Shown here one piece after another: positions 31,815-47,356 of a DNA stretch of 64,000 nt. The DNA is from an uncultured Alphaproteobacteria bacterium. GTDB taxonomy: Bacteria > Pseudomonadota > Alphaproteobacteria > Caulobacterales > Hyphomonadaceae. Numbering within the stretch: position 1 is the stretch's first letter; each line of letters opens with the position of its first letter. The notes beneath the pieces were generated by a model. It was not told where the DNA came from. It worked only from the letters and a program-made list of their open reading frames with translations, and searched no databases. The stretch lies in NCBI GenBank assembly GCA_903831255.1, contig CAIKWZ010000043.1, forward strand, positions 124,001-188,000. Direction: 5' to 3'. The position numbers and the translations under genes were made by a program.

Positions 31815-32456
31815 TCAGGGGACGAGTGAAGAGAAAAGGGCCTTGAGGGTCGGGTCGTCCGTCTCCGCGGAGATGGACGGCTCTCCACCCGGACCCATGC
31901 GAAACGAAAGCTGCGCGCGCGCCTGCGACCCCTCAAGGCCGGCGTCTGCAACAATCACCCCGTTCAGGCATGCGATCGGGCCGCGAACGGCCCCGGGAAG
32001 CCGCGATCCGTCATCCTCCAGGCGGAATTCGCCACTCGCCTCGAGGCATCCGGTGGACGTGAAACGTCCTGCCCCGCCATTCACCCGGAGAATCAGGCCC
32101 TGAGGAACGTTGGCGAGCAGACCTGACAGGTCGGTCGCGACGGTGACATTCTCGACCAAAGCGCCCTGACCATCGACCCCAACGCGGAATGATCGCACGG
32201 GGCCCGAGGCGGAGACGTTCATCCTGACCGTGCCCTGCAGCAGACTGAGGGGATCGAGTGAGAGTTTCATGTCGCCAAGCGCGATCCCGCCGAGGCTGAC
32301 CGTCGTCAGGGTTCCTGACCAGATGGTTCCGGAGGCGCGGACCACAGACAGCCCGGGGGCCCGCTCCAGGAGAGGCCCGGCCACCAGGCTGAGGGGAGCA
32401 AGGGCGATGCAAAACACGATGAAGGTGACGAGCAGGGCAAGCCAGCGGAGTCCCAT
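31815..32456 (-). CDS. gspN: Type II secretion system protein N
   Basis: A 213-residue protein with one N-terminal membrane helix (LALLVTFIVFCIALAPLSLVAG) and a periplasmic beta domain beginning VVRASGTIWSGTL, the GspN signature. GspN is an accessory inner-membrane part present in only some T2SSs. Its ATG overlaps the gspM stop by one base (TGATG). It is the last gsp gene of the operon. Confidence 0.88.
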   Translation of the reverse strand: MGLRWLALLVTFIVFCIALAPLSLVAGPLLERAPGLSVVRASGTIWSGTLTTVSLGGIALGDMKLSLDPLSLLQGTVRMNVSASGPVRSFRVGVDGQGALVENVTVATDLSGLLANVPQGLILRVNGGAGRFTSTGCLEASGEFRLEDDGSRLPGAVRGPIACLNGVIVADAGLEGSQARAQLSFRMGPGGEPSISAETDDPTLKALFSSLVP

Positions 32457-32938
32457 CAGATAAGTCCTTCACTGAGACGGATGCGGGCGGTCACTCCGGC
32501 GCCGGATGCGCGCTCGATCGTCAGGGCTTCCAGGCTGAGGCCTGTCCGTTCGCCGGCGATCTCGATCCATGCGAGAACGGCCGCTGACGAGGGTGAAGCC
32601 AGCGTGATCGCAAGGCCGGCCTCGTCCCGATCTGCGCCCAGGAGCTGAACGCCCGTCTGTGCGGACACCTCCTGCAGAGTGATGGTCAGCGTCTCGCCGG
32701 CTGCTGAGGCTCTGGCGGCGCGCTGCGCGCGGATCATCGCCGAAAGCGACTGCGCGTCAGCGAGGTCCGAGGCGGCGAGGCGGCTGCGATCCGAGGCGCT
32801 GCGCTCGGCGGCGACCCCTGGAGACCAGAGGCCGTAATACAGCCCCGACGGTATGGCCAGAGCGAGGGCCAAGGCGATGAGGAGCCGTTCGCGCGGACTG
32901 CGCTGCGACCAGCCTTTTTGGATCAGCGAGGACATCAT
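32456..32938 (-). CDS. gspM: Type II secretion system protein M
   Basis: A 160-residue bitopic protein. SPRERLLIALALALAIPSGLYYGLW is the cytoplasmic-end signature and membrane helix, followed by a coiled region and a ferredoxin-like periplasmic domain ending ITLQEVSAQTGV...ARIRLSEGLI. GspM partners GspL on the inner-membrane platform. ATG 32938 overlaps the gspL stop as ATGA; the longer open frame upstream only shadows gspL. Confidence 0.88.
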   Translation of the reverse strand: MMSSLIQKGWSQRSPRERLLIALALALAIPSGLYYGLWSPGVAAERSASDRSRLAASDLADAQSLSAMIRAQRAARASAAGETLTITLQEVSAQTGVQLLGADRDEAGLAITLASPSSAAVLAWIEIAGERTGLSLEALTIERASGAGVTARIRLSEGLI

Positions 32939-34017
32939 GGCGCGCTCCGGACCTGGAATTCCAGAAAGTCGGGGCGCTCGGCGACCGGAGAGACCGGATC
33001 CGTCATCTCGGCGCCGGAAGCTGTAAGAGACGCTCGCAAGCCGGAAAAGTCTGTTCCCGAAGCCGCTTCGAGCCGCACCGTCAGCGCCTCCCCGGCTCGT
33101 CCCTCGAGAGCGATCATGCGCACGGAAGGAAGCTTCCCCAGCTCCGCGATCAGGACCCGGCTCAGCGTCGTCATCCGCTTGCCGTTGAGATGAGAGGTCA
33201 TCTGCTCGGCCAGCTGCGCCCGGGCGTTCACCAGTTTTGCGCCTGTCGGCAGAGTTCCGAGCGCCAGATCTGCCGCGGCCCTGCGAAGGGACGCAGCCTG
33301 CCCATCCTGGCGAATGGCCGAGACCATGGGGATGGCCGCAGTGATCGCCCCGGCGAGGATCAGACCGGCGGCCAGACGCTGCAGGGCGCCAGCGTGCCTC
33401 GAGGCCTCGATCCGGCCGAGGGCCGGATCGAAGTGAAGCTCGGTCAGGAGACGTCCCGAACGTATCGCCTCCCGAACCTCCGTCTCGAGGTCGCGCTCCG
33501 CGACGGTCTGCCCGCTGAACAGGATGCGGGAGAGATCCTCTTCGCAGGCAAAGCCCCGCTCGGATCCTCTTGCAATGAGCCTGTCCTCGCGCAGGGCCGC
33601 TGACCACTCCGATGCGGAGGGCTCCTGTAAAAGAAGACATTCGGGCATGATGCGGTCGGGAACAAAGCCCCGTGCGCGGGCCGCGGCAAGCTGGGCTTCC
33701 AGATCCCGCCTTGAAGCGACGCTGACCAGGGCCATGCCCCCGGTCGCCGGTCCGAGGGCGACAACGCATCCCTCAGGCGGTTCTGCAAGATCGTCGGCCA
33801 GATCGAGGAGTGCGGCGGCTCTTTGCTGCGCCGGCGTCTCCCCGCGAAGCGTCATCCGACGGACCGGGCATGTCTCTCCGGGCGCCACGAGAATGCACAG
33901 GCGCCCTTTTCCTGCAGGGGGTCGTTCTGCATGCTGGACTGTTCCTGATGCGGTCGACCAGACATAGCGCCATGCGCCGCCTGCGACCGGGGGGAGGGCG
34001 AGACAGACTGGCGTCAT
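32935..34017 (-). CDS. gspL: Type II secretion system protein L
   Basis: A 360-residue protein with an actin-like cytoplasmic domain (residues 1-230), a membrane helix (LAAGLILAGAITAAIPMVSAI) and a periplasmic domain with TTLSRVLIAELGKLPSVRM. It recruits the GspE ATPase to the membrane. ATG 34017 overlaps the gspK stop as ATGA; ATG 34032 is a less likely alternative. Confidence 0.88.
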   Translation of the reverse strand: MTPVCLALPPVAGGAWRYVWSTASGTVQHAERPPAGKGRLCILVAPGETCPVRRMTLRGETPAQQRAAALLDLADDLAEPPEGCVVALGPATGGMALVSVASRRDLEAQLAAARARGFVPDRIMPECLLLQEPSASEWSAALREDRLIARGSERGFACEEDLSRILFSGQTVAERDLETEVREAIRSGRLLTELHFDPALGRIEASRHAGALQRLAAGLILAGAITAAIPMVSAIRQDGQAASLRRAAADLALGTLPTGAKLVNARAQLAEQMTSHLNGKRMTTLSRVLIAELGKLPSVRMIALEGRAGEALTVRLEAASGTDFSGLRASLTASGAEMTDPVSPVAERPDFLEFQVRSAP

Positions 34018-35003
34018 GGCGCATCGCTCCATCGTCGTGCAATCGGCCGCGCGGCGCCGTCTCTAAGGTCCAGGATTTCGCTCATCACGATGTCGGCGTC
34101 CAGATGGGTGATCTCCGCCGTCAGTTCGATGAACCGGGTCTTCAGACTCAGGGCTTCCATCGCTTCCTGTGGGAGTTCCATACTCCTGAGTTCGCGATGA
34201 GCGAAGAACTCTCCAAGACTTTTCCAGCCCTCGGCGGGACGGCTCCTGAGCACTTCCTCCGCTGCGCCTTCAGACAGTCTCCCCAGAAGCGCAGCGGACA
34301 GGATCCTCGCCTGATCAGGGCTCAGAGTATTGATGCTGAGGGGCGAGGGGCCGGTGACGGGAAGGGTGCAGATATAGGGGCGCAGGAGCGCATAGATCTC
34401 TGGCGTGAACCCACGGATCGCCCGCAGTTCGGAGAGCTCGGAAAGGGGTTCTCCGCCGGTCAGGTATCGTCCGGCGCTCTGACGATAGGCGATATCGTCT
34501 CCCGTGACCGCCGAACTCGAAGAGGCCGTATCCATCCACGCTCCGAGCGCCGCCACCAGCTCCTCGGCCTGGACGCTGGAGATGCCGAGGCCGGTCATCA
34601 GTTCGCGCACCTGCGCCGATCCGGTGGGATTGATCGCGTAGATATCGCCCGCGCCGGAGACCACGCTGTTGAGGTTGATGCATGAGCCGCCATCAACAGC
34701 CGATATCCTCATCAGGCCCTGATCCAGCGGGAAGGCCGCCTGCAGGGGGCCGGCCGCCAGAAGCGCCGTGAGTTCACCGGATCGTTCAAGGCGCTGGGCG
34801 GATGAGCGGGCATAGGCGTCGGCTCCTATGGCCAGCCATTGCGCCTGCATCTGGCTGGACAGGTTGGCGTCGAGACGCTGCGTTCGTCTCATGGTCTCCA
34901 TCATCAGGGCGGCGAGCGAGGCGAGGGCGGCGACGATCACCAGCGCGGTCAGTAGGGCCGCTCCGCTTTGGGACGTGGACGGAAGTGTTCGTGTCGACCT
35001 CAT
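34014..35003 (-). CDS. gspK: Type II secretion system minor pseudopilin K
   Basis: A 329-residue large pseudopilin. The leader ends SQSG, followed by AALLTALVIVAALASL. As usual for GspK, there is no glutamate at position 5 of the mature form. The large globular domain includes LNSVVSGAGDIYAINPTGS and helix-hairpin-like ALLGRLSEGAAEEVL. It caps the pseudopilus tip with GspI and GspJ. Overlaps gspJ and gspL by 4 nt each. Confidence 0.92.
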   Translation of the reverse strand: MRSTRTLPSTSQSGAALLTALVIVAALASLAALMMETMRRTQRLDANLSSQMQAQWLAIGADAYARSSAQRLERSGELTALLAAGPLQAAFPLDQGLMRISAVDGGSCINLNSVVSGAGDIYAINPTGSAQVRELMTGLGISSVQAEELVAALGAWMDTASSSSAVTGDDIAYRQSAGRYLTGGEPLSELSELRAIRGFTPEIYALLRPYICTLPVTGPSPLSINTLSPDQARILSAALLGRLSEGAAEEVLRSRPAEGWKSLGEFFAHRELRSMELPQEAMEALSLKTRFIELTAEITHLDADIVMSEILDLRDGAARPIARRWSDAP

Positions 35004-35587
35004 GCGCCGCCCCCGGGAATGAGGAAGAGCTGATCGAAGTCGCCGTCAGGCCCGAGATCGATCCGCAGACGCACAGCCCGTGGAAGGGGCCGTTCAGGAG
35101 AGCCTGGCCATCCTGAGACCCATTCATCTCCTTCCAGATAGCTGAGGGTCACAGCCCGAACTCCTGTCAGGAGAGGCTGGGTGGAGGCGGGCGGCGCGCC
35201 GTCGACGAACCGGCGGGACCGTCGCTCGATCACGCCTGCCTCGATGCGGTACTCGACGCTCTGCACGTCCGGTCGATCGTCCGCAACCAGACCATTTGCG
35301 CCGCGTCGCACGAGCGAGAGGAAAGCCCCCTCACCCTGAAGGCTCCGTCCCTGGAGGGCGGTCTGTGGCTTGCTCCCGTCCTCGGCCCGGGCTCGCCGGC
35401 TGGCCGCCTGGGTGAGGTCGAAGGAGAGCGCCGCCTGCAGACGCACCAGCTCGCCTGTGCGCAGCTCCCGCGTTTCAATCGTCTCCCGCGCATCCATGGC
35501 GTAGCCCGTCAGAAAGACGGATCCGACCGCCAGCAGCGACAGTGCGGCCATGGCGACAAGCAGTTCGACGAGCGAAAATCCTTTCAT
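35000..35587 (-). CDS. gspJ: Type II secretion system minor pseudopilin J
   Basis: A 195-residue pseudopilin with the short leader MKG and cleavage before FSLVELLVAMAALSLLAVGS, which has the conserved glutamate at position 5. The body holds VEYRIEAGVIERRSRRF and the C-terminal LRIDLGPDGDFDQLFLIPG. It forms part of the pseudopilus tip. Its start overlaps the gspI stop as ATGA. Confidence 0.92.
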   Translation of the reverse strand: MKGFSLVELLVAMAALSLLAVGSVFLTGYAMDARETIETRELRTGELVRLQAALSFDLTQAASRRARAEDGSKPQTALQGRSLQGEGAFLSLVRRGANGLVADDRPDVQSVEYRIEAGVIERRSRRFVDGAPPASTQPLLTGVRAVTLSYLEGDEWVSGWPGSPERPLPRAVRLRIDLGPDGDFDQLFLIPGGGA

Positions 35588-35985
35588 GGAAGGGCCATGA
35601 AGCTGGTCAGATTGAAGACGACCTGGCCCCGGGCCTCGGCCCGAACCTCGATATCAACCCTCAGCATGCCGGCGCCTGGGGCGGGCGAGACGGTCTGGGT
35701 CCATTCGAAGTCCTGATTGAGCGCGCTCTCGCGCCCCTGTGTCCGCCCTTGCGGCGGAGGGGAAAGACGCGCCAGAGTCTCCACCATCCGGTTCTGTGCG
35801 ACAAGGCGCGCCAGCACCCGTTCTGAAGCGGCGCCCTGCGCGCGTGCGCCGCCTTCGATCGCGTTGATCATCGCCGCCGCCGCCAGCGCGACGACAGTAA
35901 TCGCCACCATGACTTCCAGGAGAGAGAAACCTCTGTCTGCTGCGGGTCTGTCACTCACCGACCGCCTCCCGGAGGATGCGGCCAT
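35584..35985 (-). CDS. gspI: Type II secretion system minor pseudopilin I
   Basis: A 133-residue pseudopilin. The cleavage site is RG before FSLLEVMVAITVVALAAAAM with Glu5. The leader before the cleavage is 19 residues and starts inside the 3' end of gspH (35-nt overlap). A shorter start is possible, but no in-frame ATG lies nearer. The C-terminus RVDIEVRAEARGQVVFNLTS is typical. Confidence 0.9.
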   Translation of the reverse strand: MAASSGRRSVSDRPAADRGFSLLEVMVAITVVALAAAAMINAIEGGARAQGAASERVLARLVAQNRMVETLARLSPPPQGRTQGRESALNQDFEWTQTVSPAPGAGMLRVDIEVRAEARGQVVFNLTSFMALP

Positions 35986-36457
35986 CGCCGGTGACGGTAA
36001 GGTCGTAGGCGCGCCCGTCTCTGAACAGGGTCAGCCGGGCTCCTTCGGTGAGCCCGGTCGCATCAAACACGATCGCCCCCTCCGGTCCGCTCTCGCCGAT
36101 CTGAAGCGATGAACCGGTAACCCAGGGCGTCGCGGTTCCGGACGGATCGAGGGCCGTCCACCCGGATCGCGTCCTGACCTTGCGCTCATAGCCTTCTGAG
36201 GAGAACAGGACCTGGACCGCCCGGTTCCGGATGAGCGCGGCGTCTCGCGCCCCTGAGATCGAGGCGGCGAGGCGATCGACCTCGCGCCCCAGCGTCTCGC
36301 GGGGGCCGCCCAGGGTCAGCATCGCGCCGGCGGTGATGAGGCCCATGATAAACAGCGCCGTCATCATCTCGACGAGAGAGAAGCCTGCGTCCGCTCTGCG
36401 CGGAGTGTCCCTGTCAGGATCGGCGTCTGCGACGAACAGGCTCGGCATGGCGATCAA
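35951..36457 (-). CDS. gspH: Type II secretion system minor pseudopilin H
   Basis: A 168-residue pseudopilin. The cleavage site is AG before FSLVEMMTALFIMGLITAGAM with Glu5. The leader is long (about 25 residues, acidic, starting MIAMPSL). The body carries LAASISGARDAALIRNRAVQ and the C-terminal FRDGRAYDLTVTGDGRI, typical of GspH. The start overlaps the gspG stop. Confidence 0.9.
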   Translation of the reverse strand: MIAMPSLFVADADPDRDTPRRADAGFSLVEMMTALFIMGLITAGAMLTLGGPRETLGREVDRLAASISGARDAALIRNRAVQVLFSSEGYERKVRTRSGWTALDPSGTATPWVTGSSLQIGESGPEGAIVFDATGLTEGARLTLFRDGRAYDLTVTGDGRILREAVGE

Positions 36458-36942
36458 TCAGGCGATCCAGCAGGTCCGATGTCGGCATCAAGCCCCGATC
36501 CGCCTTCAAGTCCGTCGGCGCCCAGCGAACGGATCTCGAACGCCCCGTTTCGTCCTGGGGCCGCATAAACATAGGGCTGCCCCCACGGGTCGTCCGGAAG
36601 TCGACGAATGTATCCGCCTTCCCGATAGAGTTCCGGGCGGCGAAGATCTCCCGGGGCTGTCACCAGAGCTTCAAGACCCTGTGCGGTCGTCGGGTAGGAG
36701 AACATGTCGAGACGAAAGCTTTCGATCGCCTGCTCGAGAATCGCAATATCTGTCCGAGCCTTTTCCACCATCGCCTTATCCCGGCTCGGCAGGACATTAA
36801 TCAGGACAATCGTCGACAGAAGGCCGATGATGACGATGGTCACCATCAGCTCGATGAGACTGAAACCCGCTTGACGGCTCAGACGGCGCCGAGCGTGTTG
36901 ATCTGCAGGATCGGAAGCAGGATGGACAGGATCACAAGGCAT
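36454..36942 (-). CDS. gspG: Type II secretion system major pseudopilin G
   Basis: A 162-residue major pseudopilin. Cleavage before FSLIELMVTIVIIGLLSTIV with Glu5; calcium-site/loop part WGQPYVYAAPGRNG and C-terminal LGADGLEGGSGLDADI are typical. ATG 36942 lies 63 nt inside gspF and gives a 26-residue leader; GGGAGG stands about 6 nt upstream, which supports it. A CTG at 36882 overlapping the gspF stop would give a 6-residue leader and the usual 142-residue length, but lacks a ribosome site. Confidence 0.92.
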   Translation of the reverse strand: MPCDPVHPASDPADQHARRRLSRQAGFSLIELMVTIVIIGLLSTIVLINVLPSRDKAMVEKARTDIAILEQAIESFRLDMFSYPTTAQGLEALVTAPGDLRRPELYREGGYIRRLPDDPWGQPYVYAAPGRNGAFEIRSLGADGLEGGSGLDADIGPAGSPD

Positions 36943-38090
36943 ACGACGCCTCCCATGATAACGATGATTGCAGGTTCTAGCAGGCTGAGACCGACCGCGG
37001 TCGCCGTCCGGAATTCGCGTTCGAGATAGTCCGCCGCTCTCTCGAGCATCGCCTCCAGGCGGCCGCTCGTCTCGCCGCTCGCGGTCAGATAGACCAGGAG
37101 CGGCGGAAAGACCCCGGTGCGCTTCATGGCGGCCGACAATCCTGAACCCTCGCGCACTGAAGTCGCCATCTGCGCCGCCGCCTGCCGCAGAACGGCGTTT
37201 CCGTTGGCGCGGCCGGCAAGTTCGAGGGCTTCGAGAACAGGCAGGCCGCTGGCGATCATCGTTGCAAGTGACCGCGACAGGTGGGCGGCTTCCACCTGTC
37301 GCAGAAGCGGGCCGATGAGAGGGAGCGACAGTGCGATCCCATCCGCCTTAAGTCTGATCGCCGGACGCGACAGGGCCCATGCCCCGGTGACGATGGTCAG
37401 GATGATGACGATGGCGAGAAGCCATCCCCAGTCGACCAGAAATCGCGAGAGGCCGATGATTGCAAGGGTGAGGCCAGGGAGCTCCTGTCCTGAGACGTTG
37501 AACTGGTCGACGACCCTGGGAACGACGAAGGTCATGAGGGCGGTAATCACCGCCATCGCCACCACAGCGAGGACAATGGGATAGACCAGAGCGGTCGTGA
37601 TCTTCGAACGGATCTCCTGCTGGGCTTCCAGAAGATCGGCGAGCCGTTCAAGGATGACCGGCAGCGAGCCGGAGGCTTCTCCTGCCGAGACCATAGCCCG
37701 ATAGGTCGCCGGAAAGGCCCGGCCCGAGCGCGTCATGGCGTCCGAGAGGCGCAGGCCCTCGAGAACGCCTGCATGGGTGAGAGCGAGGACCCTGCGCGAC
37801 CTGATGTCGGCGGTCTGCTCGGCGAGGGTCCGAAGCGCCTCTTCCAGAGGCGCGACGCTTGCGAGCGTCGAGAGCTGGCGTGTGATCAGAGCAAGGGATT
37901 TCGCCGACAGGGCGGGACCGCCGCCCTGAGCGGCGGCTTCGGATCCCGTCCTCGAAACGGCGTGAATGGTGCTGAGTAGAAGACCCTGAGACTGCAGCAG
38001 AGCGCGCAGGGCATCGACATCCGCCGCCGTCAACCTCCGGCGACGGGTCCGGCCCTCACGGTCGATGACGGAGCATTCATAGGTCCGCAT
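36879..38090 (-). CDS. gspF: Type II secretion system inner-membrane protein F
   Basis: A 403-residue polytopic platform protein. Two cytoplasmic GspF domains are visible: the first near LALITRQLSTLASVAPLEEAL, the second near LSRSLATMIASGLPVLEALEL. Helices include IVLAVVAMAVITALMTFVVP, WGWLLAIVIILTIVTGAWAL and the last one LEPAIIVIMGGVVCLVILSIL. It couples the GspE motor to pseudopilus assembly. It overlaps gspE by 14 nt. Confidence 0.95.
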   Translation of the reverse strand: MRTYECSVIDREGRTRRRRLTAADVDALRALLQSQGLLLSTIHAVSRTGSEAAAQGGGPALSAKSLALITRQLSTLASVAPLEEALRTLAEQTADIRSRRVLALTHAGVLEGLRLSDAMTRSGRAFPATYRAMVSAGEASGSLPVILERLADLLEAQQEIRSKITTALVYPIVLAVVAMAVITALMTFVVPRVVDQFNVSGQELPGLTLAIIGLSRFLVDWGWLLAIVIILTIVTGAWALSRPAIRLKADGIALSLPLIGPLLRQVEAAHLSRSLATMIASGLPVLEALELAGRANGNAVLRQAAAQMATSVREGSGLSAAMKRTGVFPPLLVYLTASGETSGRLEAMLERAADYLEREFRTATAVGLSLLEPAIIVIMGGVVCLVILSILLPILQINTLGAV

Positions 38091-39564
38091 GGGCGTCCGC
38101 CTCCCGCCGCATCAGGCGCGCCGCTTCTTCGGGGCTGGTGACGCCTTCAGTCACCAGAACTCGTGCGCTGTCCGAGAGCCGGGCTGAGTCTGCAAATGCA
38201 TGAGCCGCCATCTCGGTTTCCGTCGCATTGGCCCCGATAAGCTGGCGCATTGTCTCGTCAATCCGCACCGCCTCATAGACCCCCGTCCGGCCAATGAACC
38301 CGGTGTGCCCGCATTTCGCGCATCCGCTGGCCCGCCAGACCGGCGCATCTTCTGCAAGACCGATCAGGCGACCGACAGCCGCTCCAACAGGTTCGCAGCG
38401 CCGGCAGGACGGGCACAGCCGTCGAACCAGTCTTTGAGCAAGAACCATTCGCAGTGTCGAGGCGAGCAGGAAAGGCTCAACTCCCATATCTCTCAAACGC
38501 GTGACGGCGCCGATAGCGTCGTTCGTATGGACGGTCGAAAGCACGAGGTGCCCCGTCAGGCTGGCCTGCACGGCGATCTGAGCGGTTTCGGAATCGCGGA
38601 CCTCGCCGACCAGGACAATATCCGGATCCTGTCGGAGGATGGCTCTCAGACCGGCCGCGAAGGTCAGGCCGACCTTGGTGTTCACCTGGGTCTGGCCGAC
38701 GCCGTCGACCGCGTATTCAACCGGATCCTCGATCGTCAGAATGGACCGGGCGCCGTCATTGAGCCGGCGAAGTCCGGCATAGAGCGTGGTGGTCTTTCCA
38801 GACCCGGTCGGTCCTGTGACCAGAACAATTCCATTGGGATCCGCAAGAGACGCCTCGAACGCTTCGCGGATCGCCGTCGGCATGCCGAGATCATCGAGGC
38901 CGAGGCCCGCCTTATCCCGGTCCAGAAGTCGCATCACCACCCTCTCGCCGACGCGTGAGGGCAGGGTTGAGACCCGCACATCGAGCGCGCGTCCGCCGAG
39001 GGTCAGGGAGATACGTCCATCCTGCGGAAGGCGGCGCTCTGCGATATCCAGCCTCGCCATCACCTTGACACGAGAGACCAGCAACGGACCGAGCCGCGCC
39101 GTCAGCCTGGCGGCTTCACGCAGGACCCCGTCGGTACGCAGACGAACGACGAGGTGGCTCTCATAGGGTTCGATATGTATGTCCGACGCTCCAAGGCGCG
39201 CGGCCTCCGCGATCAGACCGTTGATCAGGCGGATGATCGGGGCGTCGTCGTTTGTATCCAGAAGATCGGCGATCGCGGGCATGTCCCCCAGAAGATCCGA
39301 CAGCCCGCCGGCAAGTCCGGCCGCCTCAGCGTCCTCTATCCCCAGATCGCCTGCAGAATAATGCTCGGACAGCCGCGCTTCGAAGGCCGCTGCATCGAGC
39401 ATGCTGACCGCAAGTGGTCCGCGGCTCGCGCGTCGGACCTCGAGCAGCGACATCGGGTCAGCGCCTTCTCGCACGAAGACCTGAGCGGCCTCCTCGCCGG
39501 GCAGCGCAATCATCCCGTTGCGGCGGGCGAACGCGTAGGGAAGAAGAGTTCCGGAACGGGTCAT
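38077..39564 (-). CDS. gspE: Type II secretion system ATPase E
   Basis: A 495-residue hexameric ATPase. Walker A is GPTGSGKTTTLYAGL around residues 249-256, with the Asp box IEDPVEYAVDGVGQTQ, Walker B DIVLVGEVRDSETAQIA and a His box GHLVLSTVHTNDA. A zinc-type tetracysteine element follows (CPSC...CAKC), as in GspE but not pilT-type motors. The N-terminal domain is shorter than in enterobacteria. It drives pseudopilus growth. The start overlaps the gspD stop as ATGA. Confidence 0.96.
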   Translation of the reverse strand: MTRSGTLLPYAFARRNGMIALPGEEAAQVFVREGADPMSLLEVRRASRGPLAVSMLDAAAFEARLSEHYSAGDLGIEDAEAAGLAGGLSDLLGDMPAIADLLDTNDDAPIIRLINGLIAEAARLGASDIHIEPYESHLVVRLRTDGVLREAARLTARLGPLLVSRVKVMARLDIAERRLPQDGRISLTLGGRALDVRVSTLPSRVGERVVMRLLDRDKAGLGLDDLGMPTAIREAFEASLADPNGIVLVTGPTGSGKTTTLYAGLRRLNDGARSILTIEDPVEYAVDGVGQTQVNTKVGLTFAAGLRAILRQDPDIVLVGEVRDSETAQIAVQASLTGHLVLSTVHTNDAIGAVTRLRDMGVEPFLLASTLRMVLAQRLVRRLCPSCRRCEPVGAAVGRLIGLAEDAPVWRASGCAKCGHTGFIGRTGVYEAVRIDETMRQLIGANATETEMAAHAFADSARLSDSARVLVTEGVTSPEEAARLMRREADAHADL

Positions 39565-41531
39565 GGACGGCTCGCCTGCGCCCCCGGCGAGGGGGCGCCC
39601 AGCGCTTCTGTCAGGCTGGCCGTTCCGCTGGCCTCCGTTTGACGACGGACCATGTCGTCGATCTTCGGCGAGGTCGCAGCCCGGGCGTCTCCGGGAGATT
39701 TCAGAATAAGAGGACGGATGAACACCATCAGATTGGTCCGGGTCTCATCGCGGGATTCGGAGCGGAACAGGCCTCCGACAACGGGAATGTCTCCCAGCAC
39801 CGGGACTTTTTCCACTCCGAGGCTTTCTCCGCGGTCAAGCAGTCCGCCCAGCACGACCACCTCGCCATTATCGACCATCACCGTGGTCTCGATTTCGCGC
39901 TTGTTGAAAATGAGTTCCTGGCCGGGAGACAAAGGCGGCACGACGCTCGAGACTTCCTGCTTGAGGAAGAGCGTGATCGCGCCGTCCGCATTGATCTGCG
40001 GTCGCACGCGCAGCTTCACGCCGACATCCTGCCGCTCAATGGTGCGGAAGGGATTGGAGTTATTCTCCCCCAGAACCTCTCCGGTCGTGACGGGAACCTC
40101 CTGGCCGACCAGGATCGAGGCCTCACGATTATTGAGTGTCAGGATCGAGGGGGTCGACAGAAGATTGGATCCGCTGTCTCGCCGGACGGCATTGATGATC
40201 ATGCCAAAAAGGCCGTCGCCGGAGAGGTCGTCGGCGACGCCGGCGACCGCACCGGTCGCGCGCGAAATCGATCCGGCCGCCGCTGTCTGAAGATCCTTGA
40301 GGAGGGAGGAGTCCTCAGGCAGGGAGCGTCCCGCCGTTGCGGCGCCGGCGACGGTGAGCAGATTGGGCCGTGCGCCGCTGTAGGCGGTGGCGAAGAACGG
40401 GATCGAGGCGCCATCCTGCCCTGAGAGAAGGAACTGTACGCCTAGGTCTTTGGCGACGCCGTCTGAGACCTCAACCACGATCGCCTGGACAAGAACCTGT
40501 TCGCTGCGCTTGTCGATCTGGCGGACGATTGTCTCGATCTCTGACTGAACGGTGGGCTCGGCCCGCACGACGATGGCGTTGGCGCCTTCAAACAGTGCGA
40601 CGCTGCCCTTTCCCCCGGGGCGCGGAGCGCCCTGCGCGGTTCCGGTTTGCTGGCTGCTGTCCGCCCCCTGACCGAGAAGGGTCCTGACGAGATCGAGAAC
40701 TGCCGCCGCATCCGTGTTCTGCAGGAAGATTACCCGTGTATCGCCGCTCGGCTGAGCCTGGTCGTCGAGCTGCGTGGTGATCTCACGCAGCCGGCTTACC
40801 GTATCCGAAGGGCCACGAATGACGAGGGAATTGGATGCCTCGACCGCTGTAAAGCTGGCGGACGACAGCGACTTGGACGGATCGGCGCCCGCCCCGGTGA
40901 TCTCGCGAAGCGCCTCGACCAGGACGCTCGGGCTTGAGTTCTTGAGCCTTACGATTTCGATGACATCCGTATCCCGGTCGAGATCGGTCACGAGCGAGGC
41001 GAGCCGGCGGACATTGTCTGCGAAATCGGTGATGACGATGGCGTTCGCGCGCGGAGCTGCGCTGACCTGTCCGCCTTTGCCGACCAGTCGTTCGATAACG
41101 GGCAGGATGGAGGCGGGATCTCGGGACTTCAGCCGCACCACCTGGGTCACGAAGCGTTCGGCCCCGGGGCCGGAGGGCTGGGTTGCCCCGTCCTCTCCGG
41201 GGGTGATCCGGATCGCTCCCGAGGCGGTGGGCACAGCGATGTATCCGTGCGCCCGGAGAGTGGCGAGAAAAACCTCATACATCTGCTCAGAAGAGAGCGC
41301 TGCTCCTGAGGCGATGGTGACATTCCCCTGAACGCGGGGATCGATGACGAACGTCTTGCCGGTCATGCGGGAGACGTCCTGGATCAGGGCCCGGATGTCG
41401 GCGCTCTGGACATTGAGGGTCTGCTTACCGTTTTCCTGAGTTCCCGCCATGGGGGCTGTCGACAGGATCAGCGCCGTCGCGGCGGCGGCCTGCAGGAGAG
41501 AGCGCGCCAGGGTCCAGGTCCGCTTCGTCAT
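39561..41531 (-). CDS. gspD: Type II secretion system secretin D
   Basis: A 656-residue outer-membrane secretin with signal peptide (LLQAAAATALILSTAPMAG). N0 starts LNVQSADIRALIQDVSRMTG; N1-N3 repeats follow (IEIVRLKNSSPSVLVEAL, VIFLQNTDAAAVLDLV). The secretin core shows LLSTPSILTLNNREASILVGQ, VPVTTGEV and VPVLGDIPVVGGLFRSE. There is no clear lipid-type S-domain at the C-terminus, which is short and Ser/Ala rich, so a pilotin such as GspS may not be used; none is found here. The channel lets folded cargo leave the cell. Confidence 0.96.
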   Translation of the reverse strand: MTKRTWTLARSLLQAAAATALILSTAPMAGTQENGKQTLNVQSADIRALIQDVSRMTGKTFVIDPRVQGNVTIASGAALSSEQMYEVFLATLRAHGYIAVPTASGAIRITPGEDGATQPSGPGAERFVTQVVRLKSRDPASILPVIERLVGKGGQVSAAPRANAIVITDFADNVRRLASLVTDLDRDTDVIEIVRLKNSSPSVLVEALREITGAGADPSKSLSSASFTAVEASNSLVIRGPSDTVSRLREITTQLDDQAQPSGDTRVIFLQNTDAAAVLDLVRTLLGQGADSSQQTGTAQGAPRPGGKGSVALFEGANAIVVRAEPTVQSEIETIVRQIDKRSEQVLVQAIVVEVSDGVAKDLGVQFLLSGQDGASIPFFATAYSGARPNLLTVAGAATAGRSLPEDSSLLKDLQTAAAGSISRATGAVAGVADDLSGDGLFGMIINAVRRDSGSNLLSTPSILTLNNREASILVGQEVPVTTGEVLGENNSNPFRTIERQDVGVKLRVRPQINADGAITLFLKQEVSSVVPPLSPGQELIFNKREIETTVMVDNGEVVVLGGLLDRGESLGVEKVPVLGDIPVVGGLFRSESRDETRTNLMVFIRPLILKSPGDARAATSPKIDDMVRRQTEASGTASLTEALGAPSPGAQASRP

Positions 41532-42274
41532 GGTCGGCTCCTTGAGGTATGGGTGATCATGGCCTGGCCGGCCCGCTCGAAACGGATCTCAACAGGGGAG
41601 GCGGCCATGAGTGCGCGCTCGAAATCCGCTTGCTCGAGGCTGGAGGCCGACTTCCGGTCGATTTGCGTAATGATATCGCCGTCGCGAAGGCCGGTCCCGC
41701 CGAGCGTCGAGGTCTCGCCCGACAGGACAATCCGGAGGCCTTGAGATCCGCCCGACGTTTCCGTCGGCAGGAGGCTCAGCCCCGCTATGGTCAGAGCCGG
41801 CGACTCGGTTGGGGCAGAGAACGCGGTGACCATCGACGCTTGAGGAAACGCGATCGTCACCCGACCCGATGGTCCTTCGAGGATGACATGATCGGGAGCG
41901 ATCGATACCAGCCGCAGGCCGGGCGCCGCTTCCTCTCCCAGTAGCACCAGCCTTTGGGCGCCTCCGGGAGGCGCAAGAATGGCTGACCCGCCGTCCGCGC
42001 CCGTTCTCACAGCCTGCAGAGTAAAGCCGGATGCGTTCGCAGCGGGCGCCATCGGCACGGCGCCTCGGTTGAATGGATCGTCCGCCAGGGGAGCTGACGG
42101 CGCCGTCACAGAGGCCATGACGGTTCTTGATGGACGAAAAATCGGGACAGGAGCGAGGGCGGCCCACACCATCATGGCGCCGGCTGCCGACAAAGACACG
42201 ATCCAGAATGCATCAAGCGCGACGGCAAGGCCGTCGCGCCGAACGCGCTCCGCTAGAGGCTCAAACCGCTTCAT
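41528..42274 (-). CDS. gspC: Type II secretion system protein C
   Basis: A 248-residue protein with one helix (LDAFWIVSLSAAGAMMVWAALA), an HR domain (residues about 80-150, LVLLGEEAAPGLRLVSIAPDHVILEGPSG) and a PDZ-like C-terminal domain (GLRDGDIITQIDRKSASSLEQADFERAL). It links the inner platform to the secretin and takes part in cargo choice. ATG 42274 has AAGGG upstream; ATG 42334 is possible but its extra 20 residues fall in a hairpin. It is the first gsp gene after the TonB-dependent receptor. Confidence 0.88.
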   Translation of the reverse strand: MKRFEPLAERVRRDGLAVALDAFWIVSLSAAGAMMVWAALAPVPIFRPSRTVMASVTAPSAPLADDPFNRGAVPMAPAANASGFTLQAVRTGADGGSAILAPPGGAQRLVLLGEEAAPGLRLVSIAPDHVILEGPSGRVTIAFPQASMVTAFSAPTESPALTIAGLSLLPTETSGGSQGLRIVLSGETSTLGGTGLRDGDIITQIDRKSASSLEQADFERALMAASPVEIRFERAGQAMITHTSRSRP

Positions 42275-42285
42275 CACACCCTTCG

Positions 42286-42317
42286 TCGCTTCCTCTCCTC
42301 TATAGAGGAGGGAGCGA
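42286..42317 (-). promoter_or_regulatory. Inverted repeat between the receptor gene and gspC
   Basis: TCGCT...CCTCTA (42286-42302) and TAGAGG...AGCGA (42303-42317) form an almost perfect inverted repeat directly before the gspC ribosome site. As RNA it is a stem-loop between two cistrons. Probable roles are mRNA processing or attenuation. Confidence 0.55.
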
Positions 42318-42330
42318 CGTTCGCTATAGG

Positions 42331-44997
42331 TCAATAGGCCGTGGAAAGTCCGAAGCTGATGGATCGGCCAAGATCATACTGATTGATGATGATCTCGCCC
42401 CCGCCAAACGACTGACGCTCCACATAGTTCTCGTTGAGAAGATTGCCGGCCTTGACGCTTGCCGACACCTCTCGCCCTCCGATTTCGAAGGTCTTACGGT
42501 AAACAAGATCAAGGATGACCCCCGGCTCCTGAATGTAATCGGGCTCGCCCGGTCGACCCCGCGCTGAGGATCTCTCAGACACATAGGTGGCGATGAGGGT
42601 CGCCTGGGAATTCGCAGCGTCGTCCTCATATCCAAGCTGAAGATTGACCACGTGCTCAGACTGACCCTGAAGGCGGGAACCGTCGACGATGTAGAGTGTG
42701 GCGTCAGCGGGATCTCCGCCCTCGCTGATGGGGTAGACCACATCGCCAGCCTCAGCGGTCACCTCAGAGTTTGAATAAGTGTAATTCCCCTGAATGAGGA
42801 AGCTCTTTCCCTTGAGTAGGGCGTTGTCCGGGAAGGGATCGTCGAAGATGGACTTGAGCTCGATTTCAGCCCCGTAGAGGCGCGCCTCCGGAGCGTTTAG
42901 ATAGCTTTGCTGGATCGTGGCTCCCTGCTCGACGACAACCGACTCGATGGGGTTGGTGATCGTCTTGTAGAAGGCGCCGAGCGTGAAATACTGCTGATCG
43001 TCGAAGAAGAACTCGTAACGGCTGTCAAGATTGAGCAGCTCGCTGTCCTTGAGGTAGGGGTTGCCCACAAACAGCCGGTCGCTGTCCGGGTCGAGATACT
43101 GCTGCGGCGCCAGTTCCCGGAACTGGGGACGGGCGATCGTCTGCGACGCCCCGAAGCGGATCTGCTGATCCGGAGCGAAGTTCCAGGTCAGCGTCGCCGC
43201 CGGAAGGAGATAATCCTTCTCAAGGGCAGGGGGCTGATCCGGCGTCCCCTCCACAGAGAAGAGGTTACGGGGCGAGACAAACTGCCGCCCCGACTCGGCC
43301 CGAAGGCCCAGCGCAGCCCTTACATAAGTGATCGGCTCGAAGTCCGCCTTGATGTAGGCCGATGACACCTCAAGCCCGGCGTCGTATGCGGCTGCGCCGT
43401 CCGACGCCGACGTCTCCCGAATGACAAGGCGATCCGGATTGATGTTGTAGTCAGCGAACAGGTAGTCGACGCGCGTCTGCTGAACGGCCAGCGGGAGGCC
43501 TTCGGCCACAAAGCGGAATGAGCGTGCCTCTGAGGACCGCGTATTGTCCGAGTAGTCGAGTCCGCCGGAAATGACGGTATCCTTCGCACCTGCCCGCGGG
43601 ATGGCGTAGGCAAGGTCGATGCCGAAGTTCTGAACCTTGTCCGAGAGCTCGCTGAACGAAAGCCGGTTGGGCGCGCGCGAGGTATCGTGAAGATAACGGT
43701 CGATGGAATCGTCGAAAAGGTAGCGGATCTGACGCTCATAGGGCGCGTTTCGCGATGTCTCGGCAAGCGCCGCGCGCCAGCTCAGCGTGAGCGGCTCAAA
43801 ATCATGGCTGCCGCGGAGCTGTGTCGACAGAAGCTCCCGCTCATACCAGGCGGTGCGGTCGTCCCGTACATCTTCACCCGCCAGTTCATCGAAGCCAAAG
43901 CGGACATAGGTCTGCTTGGTCGTGCGGCGGATCCACAGATTGGTCCAGTCGATCGTGTGGCGGCCAAACTCGACGCCCGCTCCGAAGAGACCATCCCAGC
44001 CGACCTTGTTGTCTGTCGAGGTGTAGTTGTAGTCAGACTTAGGCGTGATCACGCCTCCATCGATCCGGCCTTCCTGCTGGATCCCGTCCTGCGTCTCCCA
44101 GTCATTGGCGTAGCCGAGCACTCCGATGACGCCGATGCTGGCGCCGCCGACATCCCAGCGATACCCGCCGCTGAGGTCCGCACTCCCGTTGGCGGGAATG
44201 GAATGATTGACCTGGACAAGATTGGTCTTTGCATTCTCGAAGCTCTGTCCGATGCGCTGCAGCTGCGCAGGTGTGAAATTCGAGCCATTGATACGCTTGC
44301 CAGTAGCAAGTGCTTCGCGCAGCTGACCCGGCATCTTGCGAACACCGTCGTCGAACCCGAAGCGGTCCGCTTCGCCGCCATTATAGGTGTAGCCTGTCTC
44401 GAAACTCGTTTCCGAGTTGGCGCTGACGCCGACACCAACCTCGAGGAAGGGGTAATCAGGAAGGTTGAGCGTGGAAAGCTCGATAACCCCTCCGCCGAAC
44501 TCCCCCGGAAACTCGGCTGAGTAGGACTTCTGGACCATCACCCCCTGAAGGATGCTGCTCGGAAACAGATCCAGCGGAACCACGCGCTGGAGCGGCTCCG
44601 GGCTGGGCAGGGGAGACCCGTTGAGGATCGCTGACGAGTATCGCTCGCCAAGTCCGCGGACATAGACGAACTTTCCTTCCGCGATGCTGAGACCCGTAAC
44701 GCGCGTCAGGGCCTCGGCGGCGTTAGAATCGCCCTGTCGTTCAAGATCGAGATTGCTGAGAAACTGAGCGACCTCAGAGGTCTCCTGAAGTGGCTCAGGG
44801 ATGTAGGATCCGAGAACCCGGATGACGTCCCCTCCCTCGGAGTCGGTTGCCGATGCTTCGGGCGTATCGGCCTGCGCGGACGCCGCCGGAGCCGGAGGAA
44901 CCGCTTCCTGAGCGAAGGCCTGGCCGCCGGTCAGCGCAGAGGTCGCGAGCAGAAGAGCGCTCAGGGAGAAGCTGTAAGCAGTCATGGACAACACCAT
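42331..44997 (-). CDS. TonB-dependent receptor linked to the T2SS operon
   Basis: An 888-residue outer-membrane receptor. Signal peptide ends AFA; plug domain around residues 75-170 (AEALTRVTGLSIAEGKFVYV, RGLGERYSSAILNGSPLPSP, FPGEFGGGVIELST). The barrel has long loops and ends LGRSISFGLSTAY. No N-terminal STN or carboxypeptidase-like domain is seen. It lies between the proline-rich lipoprotein and gspC on the same strand with only 61 and 56 nt between them, so it should be cotranscribed and under the same Pho-box control. An internal ATG at 44985 is an alternative start. It probably imports a ligand gathered by the lipoprotein; the ligand may be phosphate-containing, which is inference. Confidence 0.9.
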   Translation of the reverse strand: MVLSMTAYSFSLSALLLATSALTGGQAFAQEAVPPAPAASAQADTPEASATDSEGGDVIRVLGSYIPEPLQETSEVAQFLSNLDLERQGDSNAAEALTRVTGLSIAEGKFVYVRGLGERYSSAILNGSPLPSPEPLQRVVPLDLFPSSILQGVMVQKSYSAEFPGEFGGGVIELSTLNLPDYPFLEVGVGVSANSETSFETGYTYNGGEADRFGFDDGVRKMPGQLREALATGKRINGSNFTPAQLQRIGQSFENAKTNLVQVNHSIPANGSADLSGGYRWDVGGASIGVIGVLGYANDWETQDGIQQEGRIDGGVITPKSDYNYTSTDNKVGWDGLFGAGVEFGRHTIDWTNLWIRRTTKQTYVRFGFDELAGEDVRDDRTAWYERELLSTQLRGSHDFEPLTLSWRAALAETSRNAPYERQIRYLFDDSIDRYLHDTSRAPNRLSFSELSDKVQNFGIDLAYAIPRAGAKDTVISGGLDYSDNTRSSEARSFRFVAEGLPLAVQQTRVDYLFADYNINPDRLVIRETSASDGAAAYDAGLEVSSAYIKADFEPITYVRAALGLRAESGRQFVSPRNLFSVEGTPDQPPALEKDYLLPAATLTWNFAPDQQIRFGASQTIARPQFRELAPQQYLDPDSDRLFVGNPYLKDSELLNLDSRYEFFFDDQQYFTLGAFYKTITNPIESVVVEQGATIQQSYLNAPEARLYGAEIELKSIFDDPFPDNALLKGKSFLIQGNYTYSNSEVTAEAGDVVYPISEGGDPADATLYIVDGSRLQGQSEHVVNLQLGYEDDAANSQATLIATYVSERSSARGRPGEPDYIQEPGVILDLVYRKTFEIGGREVSASVKAGNLLNENYVERQSFGGGEIIINQYDLGRSISFGLSTAY

Positions 44998-45023
44998 CCG
45001 GATCCAAGTGTGCAGAAGGGAGT

Positions 45024-45051
45024 GGGGCGAGCGCCTGTGAGCGCTCGCCCC
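45024..45051 (-). promoter_or_regulatory. Strong stem-loop between lipoprotein and receptor genes
   Basis: Perfect 11-bp arms 45024-45034 and 45041-45051 (GGGGCGAGCGC/GCGCTCGCCCC) around a six-base loop, 7 nt past the lipoprotein stop and 27 nt before the receptor start. No T-run follows. It probably slows or stops part of the transcript, so more lipoprotein than receptor is made. Confidence 0.65.
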
Positions 45052-45058
45052 GGGATCA

Positions 45059-46552
45059 TCAGCAGGAGGTCCCGCCGGTCAGGCCGCAACTCCAGGTCTT
45101 GTACCAGCTCACCGCACTGTCGCTGACCGCACCGATCTTGGTCGGCGCTGTCAGGAAGGTGGATCCGGCGTGGTTGACCGGCGTGGTGACCGTCACTGCG
45201 TTCTCGTTGGTTCCGTTGATGAAGGTACCCGAGAGGCTCGAGGTTCCAGCCGAGGTGTTGTTCGCTCCGGCGTTGAACACCGTCGTGGTCTCGGTGAGGT
45301 TGCCGTCATCGCGGAAGGGCGAGGTGCAGCTGAAGAAGACCGAGTTGAAGGTCGGAGCTGCGGTGATGGTGTCTGCATCGTCGATGTCGAGACAGGCGCT
45401 GGTTCCGGTCTTCACCACGATCGAGTTCCAGAGCTTGATCCCATTGCCCGAGTTGATGACCATCGCATCGGAGGTTGAGGAGCGTCCGATGATTGTCGCA
45501 TTCGAGATGCGGGGGATGGTGTTCAGCGAGAAACCGCCGGTGACGGGGGTTCGGGTTCCCGCAGAGCTGAACTCAAATCCACGATCGCCGCCGTTGGCGC
45601 GCTGCACGATCAGCACGTTCTGGACGGCTCCGCGCCAGCCGGTGTCGACATCAAGACTGTCGTCATCATTGCCGGTCAGGATGATGTTCCGCAGGTTGAC
45701 CGTACCGCCGAAGAGCTCGATCCCGTCGTCGGAGGAGTTATGGACCTGAACGTTTTCGATCGTGGTTCCGTTTCCAACCCCGGCGAGCGTGATGCCGTTG
45801 AGCTCGTTATTCGGAAGGATCTCGAAGCCCGAGTGCTGAACCCGCACAAAGCTCAGACGGCCGCTGTTATCCGACGGCGTATTGCCGCCGTAGAAGGCGT
45901 TGGTGCCCTCGACCTGAGACACGCAGGCGATATTCGGCGGAGTGACCCCGGTAGGGCATCCCGCTGAGGTCGGTGCGCGGCCCAGGACCACGAGGCCGCC
46001 CCACTGTCCGATCGAGTCGACGGTCGTCGATCCCTCGATGCTCTGCCGGCTGGTGAAGATAACCGGATCGGCGACCGTGCCGACGGCGAAGATCTGCGAG
46101 CCACGGTTGACCACGATGTAGTCAAGGCCGCCCGAGCCGAAAATGCGGACGCCCGGGTCGACGGTCAGAATGCCCTGGCTGCCGCCCGCGGCGGGAGAAG
46201 AGGGGTCTGCGCCGAGATCGACGCCCACGTTCACGCGGCCGCTGATCGAGTAGATCGTGCCGTCGCGCTTGGGGATCACGAAGTTGCCGGTGATGGTGCT
46301 CGGCAGCTGACAATTGCGGAGGTTGGAGATCACGCCGACATTGTTGAAGCCTGAGGGGCAATCAGCTGCAGGGCCGGCGGGCGGCGAGGGCGGCGGAGGC
46401 GGCGGGGGGGAAGGCGGGGGCGAGGGAGGAGGGGAAGGAATGAAGACGCCTTCTCCAGGGGAGGCGACGCCGTCGCTCCCGGAGCAGGCTGCGGCGCCGG
46501 TGACGGCGAGGCAGGCCAGTAGGGCCGCCCGGACGGCTTGGTTCGATGACAT
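45059..46552 (-). CDS. Proline-rich surface lipoprotein with a beta-helix body (ElpS-like by context)
   Basis: A 497-residue exported lipoprotein. The signal peptide (MSSNQAVRAALLACLAVTGA) ends in AAAC with Cys23 as lipid site. A linker of Pro and Ser repeats (about residues 36-58) follows. The body is repetitive, with Asn/Gly/Thr-rich turns such as NGITLAGVGNGTTIENVQVHN and DDGIELFGGTVNLRNIILTGN, as expected of a right-handed beta-helix. ATG 46552 has GAGGGAGAG upstream. A Pho box lies about 106 nt upstream. Caulobacter crescentus has a T2SS-secreted, phosphate-starvation lipoprotein ElpS in a similar locus; homology was not tested here. The beta-helix may bind or process a polymer; no catalytic motif is seen. 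Confidence 0.8.
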   Translation of the reverse strand: MSSNQAVRAALLACLAVTGAAACSGSDGVASPGEGVFIPSPPPSPPPSPPPPPPPSPPAGPAADCPSGFNNVGVISNLRNCQLPSTITGNFVIPKRDGTIYSISGRVNVGVDLGADPSSPAAGGSQGILTVDPGVRIFGSGGLDYIVVNRGSQIFAVGTVADPVIFTSRQSIEGSTTVDSIGQWGGLVVLGRAPTSAGCPTGVTPPNIACVSQVEGTNAFYGGNTPSDNSGRLSFVRVQHSGFEILPNNELNGITLAGVGNGTTIENVQVHNSSDDGIELFGGTVNLRNIILTGNDDDSLDVDTGWRGAVQNVLIVQRANGGDRGFEFSSAGTRTPVTGGFSLNTIPRISNATIIGRSSTSDAMVINSGNGIKLWNSIVVKTGTSACLDIDDADTITAAPTFNSVFFSCTSPFRDDGNLTETTTVFNAGANNTSAGTSSLSGTFINGTNENAVTVTTPVNHAGSTFLTAPTKIGAVSDSAVSWYKTWSCGLTGGTSC

Positions 46553-46657
46553 GGGTCTCTCCCTCGGAACATGGTCCGACCAGGAAGGAGACGCCCTTGT
46601 GTCAGGTCGCCCTCGCTGGTCCATGGGAAGTCGTTAACGTCTTTTGACGACGCTCTT

Positions 46658-46686
46658 TTGACAGTTGTATGACAGTTTTGTTTCAG
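46658..46686 (-). promoter_or_regulatory. Pho box (PhoB site) upstream of the lipoprotein-receptor-gsp operon
   Basis: On the minus strand three 7-base repeats occur with an 11-nt period: CTGAAAC (46686-46680), CTGTCAT (46675-46669) and CTGTCAA (46664-46658), separated by AAAA and ACAA. The last two match the classic PhoB consensus CTGTCAT, 4 nt, CTGTCA almost exactly. The site overlaps the 3' end of the prepilin peptidase gene and lies about 106 nt before ATG 46552. It should activate the operon when phosphate is low. Confidence 0.8.
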
Positions 46687-47237
46687 TTGTAGGGAAGGCC
46701 GGTCAGCCAGAGGATCCAGATTCCGGCTGCGAGAAATGGCCCAAAGGGAAGAGCCGCCTGTGGTTCCCAGCGCCTATAAATTATTGATTTAATGATAAAA
46801 AACAGGATCCCGGCGAGGGCTGCGATCAGGCAGATGAGGGGCAGGGCGCTCCAGCCCAGCCAGGCGCCGCCCGCGGCGGCAAGTTTTGCATCCCCCCGGC
46901 CGAGTCCCTCACGGCCTCGTATGTGACGATAGAGCGCCTCGAGAGAGGCCAGCGCCAGGTATCCTGCGACACCGCCGATGATCCGCGTGATCAGGGAAGG
47001 TTCGACGCCGAGCGCGCCCAGTCCCAGCCCGAAAATCACGAGGCCGATGGTCAGCTCGTCAGGAAGAATCATCCGGTCGATATCGACGAAGGCGGCCCAG
47101 GCGAGGCCGAAGGCAAGGATAGCGCCCGCCGGAGCAAGTCCTTGAGGGCCAAGAACGAGCCCGCTCAGGGCGGCGAGCGCGCCGACGCCTATGGCGGCGA
47201 GTGCGAGCCTCGGGGGCAGGGCCAGAGACCCTTTCAT
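46683..47237 (-). CDS. gspO: Prepilin peptidase, A24 catalytic domain only
   Basis: A 184-residue polytopic aspartic peptidase that cuts the leaders of GspG-K. Catalytic aspartates are Asp54 (or Asp52) in FVDIDRMILPDEL and Asp116 in GLGRGDAKL. The N-terminal methyltransferase domain with its cysteine zinc motif, found in PilD, is missing, so pseudopilins may be cut but not methylated by this protein. ATG 47237 has GAGGGGAG six bases upstream; ATG 47261 is less likely. The Pho box of the next gene covers its stop codon. Confidence 0.88.
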   Translation of the reverse strand: MKGSLALPPRLALAAIGVGALAALSGLVLGPQGLAPAGAILAFGLAWAAFVDIDRMILPDELTIGLVIFGLGLGALGVEPSLITRIIGGVAGYLALASLEALYRHIRGREGLGRGDAKLAAAGGAWLGWSALPLICLIAALAGILFFIIKSIIYRRWEPQAALPFGPFLAAGIWILWLTGLPYN

Positions 47238-47356
47238 GTGATTCTCCCCTCGTTTCGACACTCTGGAGCGTGTGCGGGCGTCCTTGTCACCTCCAGTCAG
47301 CCGAGACTAGCATTGGCGTGCTGCGGACGCAGCGGCGTCTGAGGAGATTCGGCGGT

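Follow-up and report, generated by a model that had tools for sequence, protein, structure and literature searches.

Does phosphate limitation switch on a whole type II secretion system (T2SS), together with a surface lipoprotein and a TonB-dependent receptor (TBDR), as a single transcription unit? The question is raised by a locus within the 64,000-nt stretch of DNA analyzed here (the window), which belongs to a genome placed near uncultured Hyphomonadaceae; the nearest record that bears a name, a MAG, shares 99% receptor identity. The lipoprotein gene elpS, the receptor gene and gspC-N are adjacent on one strand, in the order of the Caulobacter elpS locus. The gaps measure about 61 nt (elpS stop codon to TBDR ATG) and 56 nt (TBDR stop codon to gspC ATG), confirming the shared strand and the 56-61-nt spacing described in the original prediction (Table 1). 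The receptor starts at 44985 or 44997, and its score against TIGR01782 was below the cut-off. The gspC-N block is likely to be translationally coupled.

Table 1. Features of the elpS-TBDR-gsp locus, listed in the direction of transcription (window coordinates)
Feature	Position	Strand	Remarks
gspO, prepilin peptidase	46683..47261	-	PF01478; upstream of box
Three strong PhoB half-sites, 11-bp phased	46658..46686	-	CTGAAAC / CTGTCAT / CTGTCAA; score 33.1
Degenerate fourth unit, in register with box	46643..46653	-	GCGTCGTCAAA (GCGTCGT)
-10-like hexamer	46632..46637	-	TTAACG; TA on positions 7-8 of the 11-mer following the box
elpS orthologue, surface lipoprotein	45059..46552	-	Lipobox Cys23
GC hairpin directly after elpS stop codon	45024..45051	-	GGGGCGAGCGC-TCACAG-GCGCTCGCCCC; without U-tract
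TBDR, CC0171 orthologue	42331..44985	-	PF00593 and PF07715
Hairpin filling the 56-nt TBDR-gspC gap	42284..42319	-	No Pho box in gap
gspC-D-E-F-G-H-I-J-K-L-M-N	31815..42274	-	Genes overlapping or abutting

The window locus is the orthologue of the Caulobacter elpS-CC0171-gspC-N locus, and gene set and order are common to it and to C. crescentus, where elpS is CC0170/CCNA_00169. The two differ in gspO, which lies beyond gspN in the opposite orientation in C. crescentus (PMC2996285) and directly upstream of the box in the window. Loci of the elpS type have also been named in Xanthomonas campestris, Sphingomonas alaskensis and Hyphomonas neptunium (PMC2996285). Both the gene order and the hairpin after elpS recur in Hyphomonas-type Alphaproteobacteria and in Xanthomonadales (Luteimonas, Lysobacter and Pseudoxanthomonas). 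Genome G099 (L047/L078) carries elpS and the receptor without neighboring gsp genes, and no gspD was present within the fetched flank of several Brevundimonas and Asticcacaulis loci. A phosphate-switched locus of this kind is not a new idea, since the PhoB dependence of Caulobacter elpS and the membership of the T2SS in the PhoB regulon are both published: phosphate starvation induces the elpS promoter of C. crescentus (P169) in a PhoB-dependent manner (PMC5172544), and the 47-gene PhoB regulon of this species includes the T2SS, TonB-dependent receptors and a phytase (PMC11208175).

The lipobox cysteine of ElpS is invariant in all 39 of the 39 aligned proteins. No Pfam or NCBIfam family matched ElpS, and a search of its sequence against solved structures gave no match. 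The structural model is beta-rich (mean pLDDT 87) and its fold is predicted to resemble parallel beta-helix proteins; matches of this type among solved structures (enzymes and tailspikes) were weak, with none at E ≤ 0.001. ElpS had been regarded as phosphate-induced T2SS cargo. The phosphate induction stands, but the description as plain cargo does not, since in C. crescentus the protein reaches the surface independently of the T2SS and its release alone requires the system (PMC2996285). Proteins of ~950 aa with two tandem ElpS-like domains (for example, G033:C1:1515361-1518138) are widespread in the family beside the single-domain ElpS.

The CTG repeats with an 11-nt period that had been proposed upstream of the lipoprotein gene are present, and CTGAAACAAAACTGTCATACAACTGTCA is read at 46686-46659 (-). 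Scored with half-site weights that were set by hand from the consensus of E. coli, the elpS box (33.1) ranked far above all other sites of its genome in a scan that took in the window and the loci, about 301,000 positions over the two strands; the next locus reached 16.7. Three CTGnnA units with an 11-nt period and at most one mismatch gave a single match in the window, compared with 0.11 expected from dinucleotide shuffles, and CTGTCATAWAACTGTCA with at most three mismatches matched in two overlapping registers, all at the elpS box, against 0.03 expected. In genome-wide scans, which were pattern matching with the background taken from the loci, the elpS box was the sole match to the PhoB consensus within one mismatch; among the best two-unit sites (n = 14), two, those of elpS and pstC, were clearly positioned ahead of Pho-related genes.

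The first unit of the box contains the stop codon of gspO. Where the window has the degenerate fourth unit, genus relatives have a full CTGTCAT unit in the alignment; the strong units of the window box lie one turn further upstream, and the degenerate unit adjoins the -10-like hexamer, with transcription predicted to start near 46625. The verified sequence of E. coli phoA has a similar layout, in which two 11-bp units are followed by a -10 element with TA in the phase of the window. However, the window has more units, the last of them degenerate, and elpS does not encode a phosphatase.

This promoter architecture recurs ahead of elpS orthologues, both in Hyphomonadaceae and Caulobacter and among some gammaproteobacteria; what recurs above all is the fixed phase of the -10 element. 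Measured from the start of elpS, the box lies near -130 in genus relatives and near -150 in the neighboring genus. A scan of public genomes that used the receptor yielded 70 loci; in 45 of them the highest-scoring three-unit site ahead of elpS exceeded dinucleotide shuffles at P ≤ 0.05, and 34 passed P ≤ 0.01. Sites of at least 8 bits at 11-bp sense spacing were found in 26 of the 57 dereplicated elpS promoters, compared with 4 to 11 at other spacings and at most 14 in antisense. In 30 of these 57 promoters the TA of the -10 element fell on positions 7-8 of the 11-mer that follows the box, whereas the expectation was about 4 (binomial P about 2e-19, without correction for relatedness); the relatives are not independent, and the P values for conservation are therefore too small. 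The C. vibrioides locus L104 carries the phased repeats GTGTCACAAAACTTTGGGCTGACTGTCTT at -141, about the distance seen in the window, whose box is nearer to the consensus. A bare CTGnnAn triple does occur once more in the whole genome, but a chance repeat without function is extremely improbable in view of the conservation, the spacing control and the -10 phase in relatives.

Direct repeats of 11 bp are typical of OmpR/PhoB-family regulators as a whole, and the genome encodes several further regulators of the OmpR type, one of which might bind the repeats in place of PhoB. This is nevertheless very unlikely, since the units match the PhoB consensus and are the same as those of the pstC promoter, and since the Caulobacter elpS promoter requires PhoB (PMC5172544). 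With the box and the -10 phase conserved and the units following the PhoB consensus, chance and non-Pho regulators were both set aside. The phoB/pst system is present in the genome of the window. PhoB very probably controls the elpS promoter of this organism: the box and -10 geometry are conserved, the pst/phoB operon bears its own box, and the orthologous elpS promoter of C. crescentus is a phosphate-induced, PhoB-dependent lipoprotein promoter. Pho control of the lipoprotein, the first part of the original prediction, is thus well supported.

Among the Pho-like sites of the window, the one that ranks second (16.7 bits; 28445-28417, minus strand) lies about 190 nt upstream of a beta-propeller phytase gene (PF02333; 27069-28226, minus strand). 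No such site was present upstream of the phytases of genus relatives, and it is therefore a candidate only; the phytase is plausibly a phosphate-induced secreted enzyme. Elsewhere in the same genome, tandem repeats of the TGTCAC/TGACA type precede another TonB-dependent receptor (L063, around 720-840, G000:C1), a possible further Pho target.

Neither intergenic hairpin of the locus had been mentioned in the original prediction. All 18 of the 18 family loci have a hairpin 3' of the elpS stop codon, as do nearly all of the 76 loci compared. The median score over the 76 loci was 32.75, versus 15.0 for segments drawn at random from these loci, and the hairpin lies above the 99th percentile of this null in 41. 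Its sequence varies across loci, with pairing maintained. With loops of unequal length and a poor alignment, RNAalifold recovered only five pairs of the elpS hairpin; the per-locus scan is the better evidence. T-rich stretches stand behind the elpS hairpin in several Hyphomonas-type loci but not in the window, where the hairpin is for this reason more likely to stabilize or attenuate than to act as a complete terminator.

Roughly one T2SS-linked locus in two has a second box in the TBDR-gspC gap, and many relatives carry 11-bp-phased repeats of their own there, such as CTGTCACACAACTGTAACGATATCGTCAC (L127) and TTGTCATCATACTGTCGTCAAACTGTCGC (L134). Sites of at least 8 bits at 11-bp sense spacing were found in 21 of 53 dereplicated TBDR-gspC gaps, compared with at most 5 at other spacings and 2 for antisense 11-bp spacing; the -10 phase behind these boxes is less uniform than behind the elpS boxes. 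Both regions were readable in 54 of the T2SS-linked loci. When boxes were called at P ≤ 0.05, 20 of these had both boxes, 17 the elpS box only, nine the gspC box only and eight neither, the last a point against the model proposed below; single assignments (for example, that of L105) are uncertain. In many Hyphomonas-type and Xanthomonadales loci the second box lies directly before gspC. In contrast, a convincing box was absent from the TBDR-gspC gap of the window, of its sister and of the C. vibrioides group, and L104 of that group combines, like the window, a hairpin after elpS with a boxless gspC. This comparative pattern, one box or two with the elpS hairpin retained, is the new aspect of the analysis: no description of it was found in the open-access literature, nor any paper there on regulation of the Xcs T2SS by phosphate or on gspC-proximal Pho boxes.

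These observations bear on the main part of the original prediction, read as a single Pho operon that takes in elpS, the receptor and the entire T2SS and is induced strongly and evenly. The common strand, the short gaps, the overlapping gspC-N genes and a single box, with no internal Pho box in the window, are what such an operon would look like, and the T2SS does belong to the Caulobacter PhoB regulon (PMC11208175). However, strong hairpins occupy both gaps, the first of them kept in nearly all relatives, and many relatives have the second box before gspC. Moreover, cc0171 was constitutive by RT-PCR in C. crescentus (given as data not shown), and in the work of Le Blastier et al. gspE and gspL of this species increased only 1.7-fold in poor medium (PMC2996285). 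The elpS promoter of the proposal stands and phosphate control of the T2SS machine in the window is plausible, but the single, uniformly induced unit is quite improbable.

Constitutive expression of the Caulobacter receptor (PMC2996285) would agree with separate units, in which PhoB acts on elpS alone, the elpS hairpin is a terminator, and receptor and T2SS are transcribed from a phosphate-independent promoter; the T-rich stretches of several Hyphomonas-type loci point the same way. Nevertheless, this arrangement is unlikely for the window, whose hairpin has no U-tract and whose elpS-receptor gap leaves scant space for a promoter, and it conflicts with the place of the T2SS in the Caulobacter PhoB regulon (PMC11208175).

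From the observed box, its conservation and geometry, the hairpins and the synteny, we infer that the locus is probably organized as a PhoB-driven elpS promoter with attenuated readthrough into the receptor and gsp genes. Under phosphate limitation, PhoB~P would bind the 11-bp repeats, the box would replace the -35 element with TTAACG in fixed phase behind it, and elpS would be strongly transcribed. The hairpin after elpS would limit onward transcription, with the upstream message stabilized or part of the transcripts ended, and the receptor and gspC-N would receive a smaller phosphate-dependent share by readthrough. Because the TBDR-gspC junction spans 56 nt and holds a hairpin and no box, the machine of the window would probably rely on readthrough from the elpS promoter together with any unrecognized basal promoter; an alphaproteobacterial promoter that escaped recognition may lie ahead of the receptor gene or of gspC. 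On balance, control of the window organism's T2SS by readthrough is mildly favored. The C. crescentus T2SS, which lies in the PhoB regulon and has no gspC box, fits readthrough, with an indirect effect also possible, whereas the constitutive cc0171 and the 1.7-fold change of gspE and gspL in that species (PMC2996285) disfavor strong readthrough. In P. aeruginosa, the machine of the Hxc T2SS with LapA/LapB accumulates under phosphate limitation (PMC9769906); no elpS-receptor pair has been described there, and lineage and cargo differ from those of the window.

Phosphate control of elpS-linked T2SSs could also be old and widely kept, with two alternative wirings, a PhoB box at gspC or a boxless junction with readthrough, a suggestion that we make tentatively. 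The gspC box would serve many alpha- and gammaproteobacteria and the boxless junction the window organism and C. vibrioides, and how much ElpS is made relative to receptor and machine would be set by the conserved hairpins.

The elpS locus of this uncultured Hyphomonadaceae genome now stands on a firm regulatory footing. The comparison reveals a phoA-like PhoB promoter geometry conserved before elpS and a Pho-type box before gspC in many relatives. Whether the machine is driven by its own box or by elpS readthrough, and whether the hairpin governs the dose, is a question whose answer would reconcile a constitutive receptor with the presence of the T2SS in the Caulobacter PhoB regulon.
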